From positions 1-23,928 of the IMG/VR virus record IMGVR_UViG_3300042453_002507: 23,928 bases of DNA, one strand, 5' to 3'. The DNA comes from a virus. A model generated the notes under the pieces. It had not been told where the DNA came from, ran no database searches, and saw only the letters and a list, made by a program, of their open reading frames with translations. Position numbers and translations under genes: made by a program. This document shows positions 13,726-23,928 of the stretch, one piece after another (position 1 is the first letter of the stretch; the number at the start of each line of letters is the position of its first letter).

Positions 13726-14120
13726 GCCGGTTTGTCGGTGGACTTGACAATGCCGCGGAAGATGCCGACGAACTCGTCAGTGACGTCGTGTTTGACCTCC
13801 TGCTTCTCGGCTTCGGCCAGCCCAAGGAGCTTGACCAGTTCGCGGATGGCTCCGGTCGCGGCGCTGTGGTCGTTCTCTCGCCGCGCCGAATGATAGGTGT
13901 CCTTCAAGCAGGCGACCACTTCGATGATCGTCGTCTCCTTCATGGTCATCCGCGCCTCGCGCACGATGGCATTGGCCGCGGCAATGTAGCTGCGGGCCGT
14001 CCGGTCGCACACCTTGAAAGTAGTGCAGGTTTTGGCAAGCACTTCAGTGTAGCCGATGCCGCTGACGATCCATTCAGCGACCTCGTCGATGCGCTTGTCT
14101 TTTTCGGTTTGCGAAGTCAT
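13722..14120 (-). CDS. Small terminase subunit-like DNA-binding protein
   Basis: A 132-residue protein directly ahead of terL, with ATGA coupling on its upstream side. The N-terminus (EVAEWIVSGIGYTEVLAKTC, then CDRTARSYIAAANAIVRE) fits a helix-turn-helix DNA-binding region, followed by a helical core for oligomerisation and an acidic/basic tail. That is the layout of terminase small subunits, which recognise the packaging site and present it to TerL. The call relies on position plus HTH layout. Confidence 0.75.
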   Translation of the reverse strand: MTSQTEKDKRIDEVAEWIVSGIGYTEVLAKTCTTFKVCDRTARSYIAAANAIVREARMTMKETTIIEVVACLKDTYHSARRENDHSAATGAIRELVKLLGLAEAEKQEVKHDVTDEFVGIFRGIVKSTDKPA

Positions 14121-14827
14121 GTCGTTGCCACTTTTTTACTCTGGTGGTCAAATAAAACATTGACCGCTTCCGCGTTTGGTTTCCTTAAATATCCTTCCTT
14201 ACTTGCTTCCGCTCCTGCCTGTGCGCTGTTGAGTCGTGGCAAATGGATCAAGTGTTCTGGATGCGGAATCACGCGATGGCACGCGATAAACGTGTCAGTG
14301 TCCTCTTCCTTGGCCACGCTCGCGGTGAAGCGCGTGTCGCCGGTTGGCAATACGCGCATGAGGTGCAAGTTGATTGCTACAGTGCCGTCGCTGCTCCGGT
14401 GGTGCCGCACCAGTTCGCCATGCCAGTGCCGCTGCTGTAGTGCCAGCGCCGTAGCGCGTGAAAGCGCGTAGCCGCACCCGCCATGAATCGCCGGAAACTT
14501 GTGCGTGTCGTTGGATAGCACGCCCTGCACGCAGCCGATGGCGTGCTGCTCGTCGGGACTGACGTCGATCAGTCGCAACTCCAGTCGCCGCGGGACAACG
14601 TAGCCATCGTCGTCCACAATGTAGAGCCAGTCGTAGTGCGGCTGGAACGTATCGATGGCGTAGATAGTCTTGTCTATCGCGCTCAAGTAGTCGCCTCGCC
14701 CCACTTGCTCGTCGCTGACAAACCGGACGGTGCTGGGTTTCTGAACGTGGCGCGTCCAGTTTTCGCAGAGCGTGCGCCGGTCGCGGGTGCGCTCGCTCGT
14801 TTGGATGGCGTAGTCGATTCTTACCAT
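14117..14827 (-). CDS. Fringe-like glycosyltransferase (GT31-type)
   Basis: A 236-residue protein with a GT-A type core: YDWLYIVDDDGYVVPRRLEL carries DDD at 72-74 (the DxD metal/nucleotide-sugar motif), then HGGCGYALSR at 115-124 (the GG.GY.LS loop of fringe-type enzymes) and SSDGTVAINL at 145-154 in the place of the catalytic-Asp segment. This order is that of GT31/fringe family glycosyltransferases, which add a sugar from a nucleotide-sugar donor to an acceptor sugar or protein. It lies between the nuclease-like gene and the terminase, overlapping the former by seven bases and the latter by ATGA. Possible roles are modification of host surface, virion protein or DNA base; the acceptor cannot be told from sequence. 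The last 100 bases are richer in A+T than the rest. Confidence 0.75.
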   Translation of the reverse strand: MVRIDYAIQTSERTRDRRTLCENWTRHVQKPSTVRFVSDEQVGRGDYLSAIDKTIYAIDTFQPHYDWLYIVDDDGYVVPRRLELRLIDVSPDEQHAIGCVQGVLSNDTHKFPAIHGGCGYALSRATALALQQRHWHGELVRHHRSSDGTVAINLHLMRVLPTGDTRFTASVAKEEDTDTFIACHRVIPHPEHLIHLPRLNSAQAGAEASKEGYLRKPNAEAVNVLFDHQSKKVATT

Positions 14828-16350: not shown

Positions 16351-17192
16351 GCTGCCACCACCCCTTCCAGTTCGCGGATTTTCTCGCGGATGCGGGCAAC
16401 CTCGGCCTTGGCCTCTTCCTTCCACTCCGTTTCCCACGGGCAGTCGGCTTTTTGTCTGCGGTTCCGCGGATCACCCTTCATTCGCTCCAGCTTCGCTTTT
16501 AAGGCGTCGATGCCCTGTTTGGCGTCCCACACGCCGCGGGGTTTAGTCAAAGCCGTGGCGGGGCGTTTACGCTCGTTCTCGGCCCAATGTGATGCAAAGC
16601 GTGATAGGTCATGCGGCATGGACTTGATCGAGATCGCATTTCGATCCACCCAACCCACCGCTTCGCGGGCGTCGTAATACGCCTTGCACACTTCCGGTGT
16701 GACGCTGGCCAGTTGTCCGGCGGCGGTGACCTCCTCCAAAGTCCACCCGCGGCGGATAGATAGATCCATAGAAGATGAAGATGAAGAAGAAGGGGTTGGT
16801 TTTTGCTTGCCGGTTTGCTTAACCAAATTGCCAAGCAAAATCGGGTTGCCCCCCTTGCTTCCGGCCTCGGCCCGAATCTGTCTAATCTCCTCATCACGAA
16901 CCATTCGCCGCGAAAAGATCGCGCCATTTTCGTCGCGGGAGAACACTTTATTCTCCTCAAGTTCTTTCAATAATTTGAGACAGGTTTGCGGCGACAAACC
17001 CACAAGTTTTGCGAGGGTTTTGTGCGAGAAACCCCTGCCGTTTTGCGTGAGTTTTCCGTATTCGTCGCACTCATGGGCGATGCACATCATCTCAACCCAC
17101 AGGCCACGCGCCGCCAATGAGCAGAGCCGGAGGCCGGAGTCGTTGCGCCAGTCGGAAGGGTAAAATTGAAAGGATGGGCGTTTAATTTTCAT
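16347..17192 (-). CDS. Phage replication protein (initiator / DnaD-like)
   Basis: A 281-residue protein. The start KRPSFQFYPSDWRNDSGLRL, then ARGLWVEMMCIAHE and GFSHKTLAKLVGLSPQTCLK (an HTH), is the typical N-terminus of phage replication initiators, where the winged helix binds the origin. A linker with a run of seven Ser (135-141) separates it from a C-terminal helical region that may contact the helicase loader. The ATG at 17192 overlaps the methyltransferase stop by ATGA, and GGAGGA lies nine bases upstream. The Ser run is coded by a GAAGAT-type simple repeat (16771-16793). A motif copy (16540-16551) lies inside, coding ALTKP. Confidence 0.8.
   Translation of the reverse strand: MKIKRPSFQFYPSDWRNDSGLRLCSLAARGLWVEMMCIAHECDEYGKLTQNGRGFSHKTLAKLVGLSPQTCLKLLKELEENKVFSRDENGAIFSRRMVRDEEIRQIRAEAGSKGGNPILLGNLVKQTGKQKPTPSSSSSSSMDLSIRRGWTLEEVTAAGQLASVTPEVCKAYYDAREAVGWVDRNAISIKSMPHDLSRFASHWAENERKRPATALTKPRGVWDAKQGIDALKAKLERMKGDPRNRRQKADCPWETEWKEEAKAEVARIREKIRELEGVVAA
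16540..16551. repeat. Dispersed motif copy 7 (GGTTTAGTCAAA on plus)
   Basis: Inside the replication gene, read Leu-Thr-Lys-Pro on the minus strand. The 13th base differs (G instead of A). Confidence 0.6.
16771..16793. repeat. GAA/GAT simple repeat encoding poly-Ser
   Basis: A run of GAAGATGAAGATGAAGAAGA-type trinucleotides on the plus strand. It codes a seven-Ser linker in the replication protein and could vary in length by slippage in steps of one codon. Confidence 0.7.
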
Positions 17193-18072
17193 CGCTCTGA
17201 TCCTCCAAGCAAATGCCATGCGAGTCGCACCACTGCCGGAACTTGGGCGTTTCCAATGGCGCGGAGGCGGTGAACCCTATCGGGAACCCCATTAGCCACT
17301 CTGTCCAATCGGGGTTCAACTGCCCATTGCGCTCGCAATCGGTCATGCGGGCGCTGATCGCTTCGATCAAAGTTCCTCCCTTGCGGGCCTTGTTTGCCGT
17401 GATCCGCCCGCCCTTTGTTCCCAGCGAGCTTGTTGGCGTCGGCCACAGCACCACCGCCTCCTCCAGTTGCCTCCGGTAGCCGCGCTTGGCCACCGTCCGC
17501 AATATCTGCCCCACCGTCCCGCTGCTCATGGCCGGTGACGATCTGGGCGTGGGCCACAATCCAAATTCTGTCTCGCCTGTGGGGAGCGCCGACATGGTGC
17601 GCTCCCACAATTCCCCACCGCGCATCATACCCCAGCGTGGCAAGGTCAGAGAGGACTCTGGCAAGTCCTCGTCGAACAAGCATTGGACTGTTTTCCACGA
17701 AGACGTATTGCGGTCGAACCTCACCGACAATTCGCGCCATGTGTTTCCACATGGAGCTTGCCTGTCCGTCGATCCCTGCTCCTCGTCCGGCAACGCTGAT
17801 GTCGGTGCAAGGAAATCCTCCCGATACCACTTGAGCAATGCCTCGCCACGGTCGTCCGTCAAAGGACTGGACGTCATCCCAGACGGGAAACGCTTCCAAG
17901 CATCCGTCGTTTTGTCGCGCCACAAGAACGCTTGCGGCGTAGGCGTCCCACTCGACGGCGCAGACGGTGCGCCATCCAAGGAGTTTGCCGCCGAGTATTC
18001 CGCCGCCCGCTCCGGCAAAGAGCGCGATTTCTCGTAGGCCGCAACCATCGCCTTGCTGAACAGCCAACTCAT
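17182..18072 (-). CDS. Nested second-frame protein over the methyltransferase gene ('LWPTP / EWLMGFPIG' phage family)
   Basis: A 296-residue frame from ATG 18072, directly after the RusA stop, with GGAGAGG six bases upstream. It covers the methyltransferase gene completely in the +1 frame. It is not a random shadow by composition: residues 120-181 (DRNTSSWKTVQCLFDEDLPE, then SSLTLPRWGMMRGGELWE and FGLWPTPRSS) and 249-281 (NGQLNPDWTEWLMGFPIGFT, then LETPKFRQW) match a phage family I recall as a stand-alone protein or annotated near DNA methyltransferases. The N-terminus MSWLFSKAMVAAYEKS also matches that family. No catalytic role is known. Either it is a real overlapping gene or the family is a database artefact of the methyltransferase frame; see findings. 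Confidence 0.6.
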   Translation of the reverse strand: MSWLFSKAMVAAYEKSRSLPERAAEYSAANSLDGAPSAPSSGTPTPQAFLWRDKTTDAWKRFPSGMTSSPLTDDRGEALLKWYREDFLAPTSALPDEEQGSTDRQAPCGNTWRELSVRFDRNTSSWKTVQCLFDEDLPESSLTLPRWGMMRGGELWERTMSALPTGETEFGLWPTPRSSPAMSSGTVGQILRTVAKRGYRRQLEEAVVLWPTPTSSLGTKGGRITANKARKGGTLIEAISARMTDCERNGQLNPDWTEWLMGFPIGFTASAPLETPKFRQWCDSHGICLEDQSDEN

Positions 18073-18076
18073 TCAC
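17189..18076 (-). CDS. dcm: C5-cytosine DNA methyltransferase
   Basis: A 295-residue enzyme from GTG 18076, which shares the Shine-Dalgarno with the nested frame. Motif I is LFAGAGGGILGG (19-30, SAM binding), motif IV is SGGFPCTDIS (85-94, Cys90 catalytic), motif VI is VENSP (127-131, Glu-Asn), motif VIII is HRRDRIWIVAHA (166-177), and motif X is RLRAIGNAQVP (270-280). The region between VIII and X is short and Gly-rich, so the target-recognition domain is small. It methylates cytosine at C5, probably to protect phage DNA from host restriction; the site is not predictable. Arg codon CGA and Gly codon GGA look more frequent than in neighbouring genes, as expected if the other frame constrains it. 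Its stop overlaps the replication protein start by ATGA. Confidence 0.92.
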   Translation of the reverse strand: MNELAVQQGDGCGLREIALFAGAGGGILGGKLLGWRTVCAVEWDAYAASVLVARQNDGCLEAFPVWDDVQSFDGRPWRGIAQVVSGGFPCTDISVAGRGAGIDGQASSMWKHMARIVGEVRPQYVFVENSPMLVRRGLARVLSDLATLGYDARWGIVGAHHVGAPHRRDRIWIVAHAQIVTGHEQRDGGADIADGGQARLPEATGGGGGAVADANKLAGNKGRADHGKQGPQGRNFDRSDQRPHDRLRAQWAVEPRLDRVANGVPDRVHRLRAIGNAQVPAVVRLAWHLLGGSER

Positions 18077-18468
18077 AACCTCTCCTTCATGCTGACTTCC
18101 AAATACGGATCTCCCACGCGGCACTTTTCCGCGACGAGTTGATCCACCAGCGCGTCGTCCGCAATCCAGCCAGCAGGCACCAGCGCGTCCAAAACGCCCT
18201 TGCACAAGTTGTCAAGGTCGGGCCGCACCGCGTGGATGCGCTCGTTTGGCCGCGCCTTGGTCACGCGGAAGGCGAACTTGATCTTGATCAGCACCGGAAA
18301 CTCCACTGGTTGCCGCGGCTTAAATTTCCGAAGCTGCAAGACCAGCGCGTCCTGCGCGTCCTTGACCTTTTTCTTTGTGAAGAACATGGGGCGACCGGCG
18401 CGAACCATCACGCCCTTCTGCTGGGCAGTGACCGTTGGTGGGTCGCCGTCGATAATTGCAGTGATCAT
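18073..18468 (-). CDS. rusA: RusA-type Holliday junction resolvase
   Basis: A 131-residue endonuclease with the family signature AVRPDLDNLCKGVLDAL at 80-96 and DDALVDQL at 104-111. Asp84, Asp86 and Asp94 are the probable metal ligands. RusA dimers cut four-way junctions symmetrically and resolve intermediates formed by RecT-style annealing. The start is ATG at 18468 in the context CCCACACAATGA, overlapping the upstream stop. An upstream extension in frame exists but crosses two other genes and is rejected. Confidence 0.93.
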   Translation of the reverse strand: MITAIIDGDPPTVTAQQKGVMVRAGRPMFFTKKKVKDAQDALVLQLRKFKPRQPVEFPVLIKIKFAFRVTKARPNERIHAVRPDLDNLCKGVLDALVPAGWIADDALVDQLVAEKCRVGDPYLEVSMKERL

Positions 18469-21164: not shown

Positions 21165-21385
21165 TGTGTGTTCTTGTTCCTGCGGTGTTGAATGCGCTGG
21201 CACATAGCCGACGCGAAAGTGACCCAGTTCGGGTTGACGTCTTGGCCCTCGTCCGCGAGCCACTGGTGAATGGCGCGGAAGCCCCAGCCCTTCGACCGCA
21301 ACACTTCGACGGCATCGACAAGTTCGTGGCTGTAGTTGCGTTGGTCGCCGCGGGGAGCGGCGTGGGCTTTATCGATGAGATTCAT
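21161..21385 (-). CDS. 74-residue HTH-like early protein
   Basis: MNLIDKAHAAPRGDQRNYSH and on. The segment VEVLRSKGWGFRAIHQWLADEG (residues about 27-48) has the spacing of a resolvase-type or recombinase-like helix-turn-helix ('L...G.s...Ia..L...G'). It overlaps the upstream RHH gene by 17 bases. It is a DNA-binding candidate for early regulation. Confidence 0.6.
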   Translation of the reverse strand: MNLIDKAHAAPRGDQRNYSHELVDAVEVLRSKGWGFRAIHQWLADEGQDVNPNWVTFASAMCQRIQHRRNKNTQ

Positions 21386-21557
21386 GCTTGGGCTTGGTTA
21401 GGTGTATTACACCTTCGGACGCAAAAAAGTCGGCCACAATCTTGCTGACTTGCTTTGCGAAACTCCGGTGTTCGGCGCGGGCGCGATCTTCGATGACCGT
21501 GGCCAGATCACGCGGCATCGATATGCTTTTGCGGGTGGTGGTGGGTTTGGTGGGCAT
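21369..21557 (-). CDS. Ribbon-helix-helix (Arc/CopG-like) protein 2
   Basis: A 62-residue protein with a basic N-terminal strand TTRKSISMPRDLATVIEDRA, then helices RAEHRSFAKQVSKIVADFFA. This layout (strand followed by two helices, with a conserved S-[FK]-[AS] turn) matches Arc/MetJ/CopG-type repressors that act as dimers. Its coding sequence near the 3' end contains a perfect 13-bp palindrome (21401-21413), which repeats upstream of the previous gene and suggests autoregulation. Confidence 0.7.
   Translation of the reverse strand: MPTKPTTTRKSISMPRDLATVIEDRARAEHRSFAKQVSKIVADFFASEGVIHLTKPKHESHR
21401..21413. promoter_or_regulatory. Palindromic operator-like site GGTGTATTACACC
   Basis: A perfect 6+1+6 palindrome. 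The 17 bases starting at 21397 (GTTAGGTGTATTACACC) match 21823-21839 with one mismatch. It lies inside RHH gene 2, 16 bases before the next start. Confidence 0.55.
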
Positions 21558-22261: not shown

Positions 22262-22286
22262 ATAGGGAGAAGCCCCCTATTTTTTT
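22262..22286 (+). terminator. Plus-strand intrinsic terminator candidate
   Basis: ATAGGG (22262-22267), a 7-base loop and CCCTAT (22275-22280) are followed by a run of Ts. It overlaps the stop of the 59-residue early gene on the other strand. It would stop rightward antisense transcription before the integrase region. Confidence 0.4.
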
Positions 22287-22456
22287 CGGCGGTCGCGAAC
22301 TTTTTTCTTCACCCTGCGCTGGTACGCCGGATTCTCCGCGTAGAACTTGGCCTTACGCTTCGACTCGGCCTTACGGAACTTCGGGTCACCGGCATACCGC
22401 TCGGCGTAGCGTTGCCGCATTGCGGCCAGTTGTTCCTCGCGGTCGCTGTAAGGCAT
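22277..22456 (-). CDS. 59-residue basic protein, first early gene
   Basis: ATG at 22456, product MPYSDREEQLAAMRQRYAER and on, ending KKKVRDRRKK: about one-third Lys/Arg. Short helical basic proteins beginning 'MPY.D.e.q......Ry' are common in phages and often lie next to HNH or early genes; no HNH motif is present here. A copy of the 13-bp motif ends two bases before the ATG, so the site may control it. No Shine-Dalgarno is visible. Confidence 0.6.
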   Translation of the reverse strand: MPYSDREEQLAAMRQRYAERYAGDPKFRKAESKRKAKFYAENPAYQRRVKKKVRDRRKK

Positions 22457-22501: not shown

Positions 22502-22670
22502 AGTGTGCCAACTGGGTGTGTCAACTTTCAGTCTTTTCTGCCGTTTTACAGAAAGAGAGGCGAGGGTCGGAATCGAACCGACGCTTCGTGTAACCCCTTC
22601 TGTTACAGAGACAAACGACTATTTTCTTGATGCATTGTAGGCATTTTAGTGTAGAACTGGCTGGGTCAAC
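22502..22670. other. attP-like region with integrase arm-type repeats
   Basis: Two imperfect direct repeats (22502-22525 and 22648-22670, sharing AGTGT, AACTGG and GTCAAC blocks) flank the tRNA T-arm and acceptor half at 22559-22582. The integrase gene begins 12 bases to the right. A dyad TTTCTG/CAGAAA (22535-22540 and 22549-22554) lies between the left repeat and the tRNA end. This is the usual layout of a phage attachment site: arm-type sites around a tRNA-derived core. Confidence 0.55.
22559..22582 (-). other. tRNA 3'-end fragment (T-arm plus acceptor 3' half), probable att core
   Basis: On the minus strand GTCGG-TTCGATT-CCGAC is a canonical T-arm (TTCGATT loop) followed by CCTCGCC, the 3' half of an acceptor stem. 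No matching GGCGAGG is found within tRNA distance upstream, so the tRNA is incomplete. A hairpin TGTAAC/GTTACA (22589-22607) lies next to it. The host tRNA identity is not recognisable. Confidence 0.6.
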
Positions 22671-22681
22671 TCTCACCTCTT

Positions 22682-23827
22682 ATGTCTTCACTCATCATCC
22701 TTCCCAACAGTCCCTATTGGATGGCACGCATGCGGGTCTGGATTTTCTCACAAGACCACCCAGACGGCGGTTTCTGGCGTCAGACTTGTCGTAGCACAAA
22801 GATGCTGCACAAGACAACCCCGCGCAAAACGGCCCAGCGGTATGCCGACGAATTGGAGCGGATCGGGCGCGAGCTACGCGACCAGATACCGGATGAGGTG
22901 TGGATGAAAGCGAGCGTGGCGGCTCTTATGCGGGCCGCGGGCGTCAAGGGGTCAACGCGCCGCACCACATGGGAAAAGGCCGCACAGGGCTATATAGGCG
23001 CAAAGACGGCCAAACCTCGCAGCGTTGACTCCTACCGATCCCACTGCCAGCACTTCGCTGATTTCCTTGGCCAACGGGCGCGGCATGACCTCAAGTCCAT
23101 AACCCCAGAGGATATAGCGGAGTTCTACCACGCGCTGATTAAGCGCGGGCTGTCGGCTCGCAGCGCCCAGCAGATCACCAAGACCATCCGCGCCGTCTTC
23201 ACCCGCGCCCTGCACCTCCGCGAGATCGACGCGAATCCGGCGGCACTGTTCCGCATGAGCGAGGACGCCACGCCGACGGGTCGGAAGCCGTTTTCGACCC
23301 AAGACATCAGCGCCATCCTCGCCGCCGCGGACAAAGAGTGGCGCATTGCGTGCCTCTTCGGGCTGTTCTTCGGCATGCGGTTGGGAGACGCCATCCATCG
23401 CAGCTACGAGGAAATAGAAAGCGGCGTCCTCCGGTTCATGCCAGAAAAGAAAAGCCGTCGCGGCAAGGTTGTCGCAGTGCCGCTGGTCGGGGAGCTAAAC
23501 AAGCTGCGGGGCCGCGGCAAGATCACGCCCACGCTCGACGCCATGAGCATCACCGTTGCCTCGCGGCACTTCTCCCGCCTGCTCGACGCCGCCGGTATCC
23601 AGCGCGTGAAGACCAAAAAGAAAGGCGAAGGCCGCGGGATTACGGACAAAACCTTCCACTCATGGCGTCACACCACCAACAGCATGCTCGTCGATGCCGG
23701 TGTCGATCAGCGCGTCCGACAGCTAATCTGCGACCATGATTCGACCAAGGTGTCCAACAACTACACGCACGCCAGCATCGAAACGATGGCCAAGGCGTTG
23801 GAGTCGCTCGCTACCCTCGCCAAGTAG
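22682..23827 (+). CDS. int: Tyrosine integrase
   Basis: A 381-residue tyrosine recombinase, the only clear plus-strand gene. The N-terminus MSSLIILPNSPYWMARMRVW is the arm-binding strand region, and residues about 95-185 form the SAM-like core-binding domain (KPRSVDSYRSHCQHFADFLG). Catalytic residues are Arg233 (GMRLGDA), Lys near 256-262 (PEKKSRRGK), His326 and Arg329 (HSWRHTTNSML), His352 (CDHDSTK) and Tyr361 (NNYTH). It joins phage and host att sites. No Shine-Dalgarno precedes the ATG. Its 3' end overlaps the endolysin gene on the other strand by 17 bases. Confidence 0.93.
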   Translation: MSSLIILPNSPYWMARMRVWIFSQDHPDGGFWRQTCRSTKMLHKTTPRKTAQRYADELERIGRELRDQIPDEVWMKASVAALMRAAGVKGSTRRTTWEKAAQGYIGAKTAKPRSVDSYRSHCQHFADFLGQRARHDLKSITPEDIAEFYHALIKRGLSARSAQQITKTIRAVFTRALHLREIDANPAALFRMSEDATPTGRKPFSTQDISAILAAADKEWRIACLFGLFFGMRLGDAIHRSYEEIESGVLRFMPEKKSRRGKVVAVPLVGELNKLRGRGKITPTLDAMSITVASRHFSRLLDAAGIQRVKTKKKGEGRGITDKTFHSWRHTTNSMLVDAGVDQRVRQLICDHDSTKVSNNYTHASIETMAKALESLATLAK

Positions 23828-23927
23828 CGTTGACGCCGCGGGTGTCCAGATGAACGAACGAGCGATACAATCCCAGCCCGCCCTTGAACATGCCCTCGCG
23901 CCGGAGGTCGAGCAGGACGAGGTAAAG
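23811..23927 (-). CDS. Peptidase M15-like endolysin, C-terminal end (runs off the right end)
   Basis: The minus strand is open from the window edge to TAG at 23813-23811. The 38 visible residues end with GGLGLYRSFVHLDTRGVNATW, the zinc-binding HxD tail (H-L-D-T-R-G) of D-Ala-D-Ala carboxypeptidase/endolysin M15 domains. Such enzymes cut peptidoglycan cross-links for lysis. Only the C-terminal part is here. It shows that phage genes continue to the right of the integrase, so the att-like site is not at the edge of an integrated prophage. Confidence 0.8.
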   Translation of the reverse strand, partial: LYLVLLDLRREGMFKGGLGLYRSFVHLDTRGVNATWRG

Positions 23928-23928
23928 C

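Follow-up and report, generated by a model that had tools for sequence, protein, structure and literature searches.

A tRNA-Cys-type attachment site beside a tyrosine integrase in an uncultured phage lineage, and possible exchange of attachment cores among its relatives

The stretch of DNA studied here (the window) is the linear virus contig IMGVR_UViG_3300042453_002507, of 23,928 bases, and our subject is a compact phage attachment site (attP) at 22503-22681, directly upstream of a tyrosine integrase gene. The core of this attP (22557..22583, minus strand) is a stretch of 27 nt that matches exactly the 3' end of tRNA-Cys(GCA) genes. Read on the minus strand from 22583 to 22557 it is CGTCGGTTCGATTCCGACCCTCGCCTC, which comprises T-stem, T-loop and T-stem (the T-arm, 22566-22582, with the T-loop at 22571-22577), then the acceptor 3' strand (22559-22565), and ends with the discriminator U at 22558 and the first C of CCA. 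The core is flanked on the left by the P arm (22503..22526, plus strand), with the arm-type repeats GTGTGCCAACT-gg-GTGTGTCAACT, and on the right by the P' arm (22649..22671, plus strand), with GTGTAGAACT-ggc-TGGGTCAACT, each side carrying a pair of repeats at a 13-bp period. Inside the arms, direct repeats of the TTACAGAG type, which are absent from the initial annotation of this DNA, bracket the core: TTTTACAGA on the left (22544..22552, plus strand) and GTTACAGAG on the right (22602..22610, plus strand), the latter within the near-palindrome CTTCTGTTACAGAG (22597-22610). The integrase gene (22682..23827, plus strand, 381 aa) starts 99 bases from the core.

The initial annotation had recognized a tRNA T-arm plus acceptor 3' half at the correct coordinates and had suggested looking for a host tRNA gene with the same 3' end. 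Such genes exist: 3 of 388 Verrucomicrobiota genomes contain an exact copy of a 26-mer of the core, in all three cases as part of a complete tRNA-Cys(GCA) gene, and by inspection the identity between phage and host extends over 27 nt, through the C after the discriminator, and diverges beyond. Verrucomicrobiota genomes were chosen for this search because a scan covering ~85,000 species genomes yielded a single integrase relative, from a Verrucomicrobia metagenome-assembled genome (L037, 29%), which has its own T-arm motif upstream of the integrase gene. The identical 26-mer stands in the same frame in 27 of the 35 viral relatives found first, and the tRNA-Cys core recurs in later-found ones. 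ARAGORN detected no complete tRNA in the window, as expected for a core that corresponds to the tRNA 3' half only. It is highly improbable that the tRNA piece is instead a decoy, left by a degraded phage-borne tRNA gene or serving as a tRNA-derived RNA, although tRNA genes do occur in phages and the strand folds modestly better than its shuffles (z -1.6). With 11 of 200 shuffles doing as well, the fold lacks significance, and we dropped the idea of a folded RNA from the core strand on that ground; moreover, the part that is kept, T-arm plus acceptor 3' half, is exactly the part that restores a tRNA gene, and its place is taken in some relatives by an equally long 3' half of tRNA-Gly.

The two imperfect repeats that had been noted on either side of the core are real. 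An alignment score as high as that between the P and P' arms was obtained in 1 of 2000 shuffles and at 1 of 367 control positions within the window, and the arms are conserved in 33 related attPs (mean 0.79 for P and 0.74 for P'). Their arrangement suggests that they may be bound by the integrase. The most conserved parts of the attP are the bracketing repeats, with 0.93 on the left, whatever the core, and 0.95 on the right, as against 0.75 for the core, a value lowered by design since the 33-attP set mixes core types.

The neighboring tyrosine integrase predicted earlier was recovered by both Pfam and PHROGs (PF00589, E=7e-9, together with an N-terminal SAM-like domain; PHROG integrase, E=1e-33), and 35 viral relatives share 57-100% identity with it; no full-length match was found in 50,697 phage records. 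Its gene end overlaps that of an endolysin gene on the right, of which the window holds the C-terminal end (23811..23928, minus strand); the full copy in relative L002 matches Peptidase_M15_3 (E=2e-16), in agreement with the endolysin called there before. On the left, a 59-aa early gene (22277..22456, minus strand) adjoins the P arm, and because relatives have the start region of this gene beside their own attPs, this side is also phage. Further left come short early genes together with genes for a RecT-like annealing protein, a PDDEXK exonuclease of the exonuclease VIII type, RusA, a replication protein, terminase, portal, capsid and tail. Phage genes on both sides were likewise part of the initial annotation and are well founded.

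The same arrangement of integrase gene and attP is found inside near-complete contigs of relatives (37-41 kb) and recurs in those long enough to reveal the left flank. A prophage end (attL or attR) with host DNA on one side would typically also show a tRNA fragment beside an integrase, but this explanation is extremely improbable here: the left side has genes for recombination, replication and structural proteins, the right side has an endolysin gene, and the contig is collinear with relatives up to ~41 kb. In an integrated copy, one side would show host DNA or a rebuilt tRNA, and ARAGORN detected no tRNA gene in 48 related viral loci; together with the phage genes on both sides, this points to an unintegrated attP. 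The site had been ascribed to a free or excised circular genome, of which the unintegrated state is supported. Circularity of the contig is not, because the linear 23,928-base record has no end repeats, and the attP could equally well be internal to a linear virion genome. For the family, on the other hand, overlapping ends in two relatives (483 bases at 96.7% and ~1.19 kb at 92.6%) fit a circular or permuted map.

Taken together, the site is very probably the attP of a podovirus-like phage with a genome of ~40 kb, whose integrase would act on the 27-bp core and on a host tRNA-Cys gene with the same 3' end, recombining the two. Strand exchange would most likely take place in the T-loop, a placement suggested by the flanking T-stem inverted repeat and by the likeness to mycobacteriophage Ms6, while the N-terminal integrase domain would bind the arm repeats of 13-bp period to the left and right of the core. 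Given that the tRNA copy is oriented away from the integrase gene, integration is predicted to rebuild an intact tRNA-Cys beside the early genes and to leave the displaced 3' fragment beside the integrase. This layout is observed in a distant relative: in Verrucomicrobiota genome G259 (L149), a truncated tRNA-Gly copy of 28 bp adjoins an integrase homolog (E=8e-45), the 28-bp repeats GAGCGGGTGAAGGGAATCGAACCCTCGT stand ~5.5 kb apart, and the intact tRNA-Gly(CCC) is at the integrase-distal end, as predicted. This element in tRNA-Gly(CCC) (L149:1542-7153) is short, at 5.5 kb, and has no obvious phage structural genes in its list of open reading frames.

Core identity, an adjacent recombinase, arm repeats on both sides and phage DNA on both sides make the site a further member of the known class II, T-loop kind of attP in tRNA genes (tDNA), and by itself an ordinary one. 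In Ms6, which uses tRNA-Ala and belongs to the same T-loop class, the T-loop lies within a 26-base core, and integration drops when the loop is mutated (PMC1762012); the 27-base core described here has the same limits and T-loop placement but corresponds to tRNA-Cys, in another phage group and with a host predicted by sequence comparison. Sites in the T-stem or T-loop account for about half of the 3919 mapped tDNA islands in Islander (PMC4383910), in which, as here, an attP with a 3' tDNA fragment rebuilds the gene, although the present site is a free attP rather than a chromosomal one. The short-tailed, T7-like cyanophages P-SSP7 and S-TIP37 also combine an integrase with a tRNA-matching attP, and integration needs both int and attP (PMC8776855). 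In these phages the match is to tRNA-Leu and the attP lies downstream of int, whereas here it precedes the int start, the tRNA copy is on the opposite strand and the proposed target is tRNA-Cys. Pelagiphages of the HTVC010P type are alike in major capsid (43-45% identical) and portal (31-33%), but no pelagiphage integrase was among the matches.

Several results weigh against integration into tRNA-Cys as proposed. The search of ~85,000 species genomes, which yielded the single 29% integrase relative, brought up neither a prophage of this phage nor one of a close relative. The exact Cys core was sought in Verrucomicrobiota only, with a match in just 3 of the 388 genomes. Finally, no CI-type repressor was recognized among the window genes scanned, so that integration may not lead to lysogeny; a weak match to an Arc-like protein (21369-21557) is the only repressor hint among them. 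In T7-like cyanophages, integration into tRNA-Leu does not produce lysogens (PMC8776855), and integration here is therefore not to be equated with lysogeny. It is somewhat doubtful, but compatible with the attP assignment, that the site functions in integration while the phage is essentially lytic and integrates only transiently. The lack of a recognizable CI-like repressor and the attP form of all viral relatives, none with a restored tRNA, would fit such a life style, for which P-SSP7 and S-TIP37 provide a precedent (PMC8776855). On the other hand, most PHROGs are without known function, so a repressor could escape recognition, and portal homologs at 37-38% identity in many Verrucomicrobiota genomes suggest that prophages form at least in relatives.

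The proposed tRNA-Cys attP is one of a larger set, and our comparison of ~60 related attPs revealed different cores within the same frame. A tRNA-Gly core is present in L028, L029, L031, L034, L090, L096 and L120; this Gly 27-mer occurs exactly in 36 of 289 Verrucomicrobiota genomes, and all eight loci checked were tRNA-Gly(TCC) genes. Other cores have only the integrase-side half of the T-arm, or nothing of it (L032, L035, L088, L091-L094, L098, L099, L105, L115 and others). Cores with the integrase-side half only also occur in L101-L103, L106, L117 and L119, with the remaining ~19 nt differing between phages. The commonest non-tRNA core, GTTATGGGTTCAAGTGAATCGGGCC, was absent from 388 Verrucomicrobiota genomes when as many as 3 mismatches were allowed.

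The type of core goes with the integrase region at residues 65-195, which is 40-50% identical between types, whereas the catalytic domain reaches up to 89% (domain limits were taken as 1-64 for arm binding, 65-195 for core binding and 196-381 for catalysis). For example, L013 (Cys) and L028 (Gly) share 75% identity in residues 1-64, 49% in 65-195 and 89% in 196-370, and the corresponding values for L009 and L096 are 64, 40 and 85%. We tentatively propose that a cassette running from the attP core to the core-binding domain is swapped between phages, which would retarget them among tRNA-Cys, tRNA-Gly and apparently non-tRNA sites while arms, catalytic domain and neighboring genes stay. In the core-binding tree (22 rows) the Cys rows form one group with full support, and placing L013 among the Gly phages is rejected (p=0.0002); the same placement is compatible with the catalytic-domain tree (p=0.42). 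It is unlikely that core and core-binding domain do not form a cassette and that the identity levels merely reflect differing rates along the integrase. Approximately unbiased tests on the catalytic domain would allow this, since a single Cys clade is not rejected (p 0.17-0.24), but the nearest relative of L013 changes along the protein, being L010 (Cys) in the core-binding domain (85%, versus 49% for L028) and L028 (Gly) in the catalytic domain (89%, versus 76% for L010). Between L013 and L029, moreover, DNA identity is ~90% upstream, falls to 48-73% from the attP to ~residue 195 and returns to ~86% beyond. Recombination thus appears well supported by the identity profiles, and less so by the tree tests. 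Every core is framed by the TTACAGAG repeats, which may provide a constant border for the exchange or a site for a factor common to all targets.

Verrucomicrobiota is the likely host phylum. In addition to the core matches and the L037 integrase, more distant integrase homologs occur in 53 of 388 genomes of this phylum, and nine of the distant bacterial homolog loci that were read show a T-arm-like motif, in the same orientation, ahead of the integrase gene. Portal relatives are found in 19 of 145 Verrucomicrobiota genomes with up to 38% identity, as against at most 33% in cultured phages. The phage capsid had no match in the three Cys-core genomes, and a terminase search returned only phages, at about 35% or less. 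One bacterial locus with a tRNA-Cys near an integrase (L045) was set aside, as its tRNA lies ~1 kb from the integrase and is without the core. A literature search yielded no Verrucomicrobia phage with a tRNA-Cys attP that answers the question.

Elsewhere in the window, two overlapping frames on the same strand (17182-18205, minus) both match phage families, apparently with ~880 nt of dual coding: the frame at 17189-18205 matches C5 cytosine methylase (Pfam E=9e-29; phrog_363, E=3e-60), and that at 17182-18072 matches phrog_1008, "DNA methyltransferase" (E=8e-25). A 236-aa protein at 14117-14827 (minus strand) matches a Fringe-like glycosyltransferase (PF02434, E=2e-6), which is unusual beside terminase genes.

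From a biological point of view, the tRNA match points to Verrucomicrobiota as the probable host phylum of an uncultured lineage of phages and provides a precise candidate integration target. The main interest lies in the apparent family-wide exchange of the core plus core-binding domain, through which these relatives may serve as a natural domain-swap series, with shared catalytic domain and arms and differing core-binding domain and core, for reading the target specificity of integrases.
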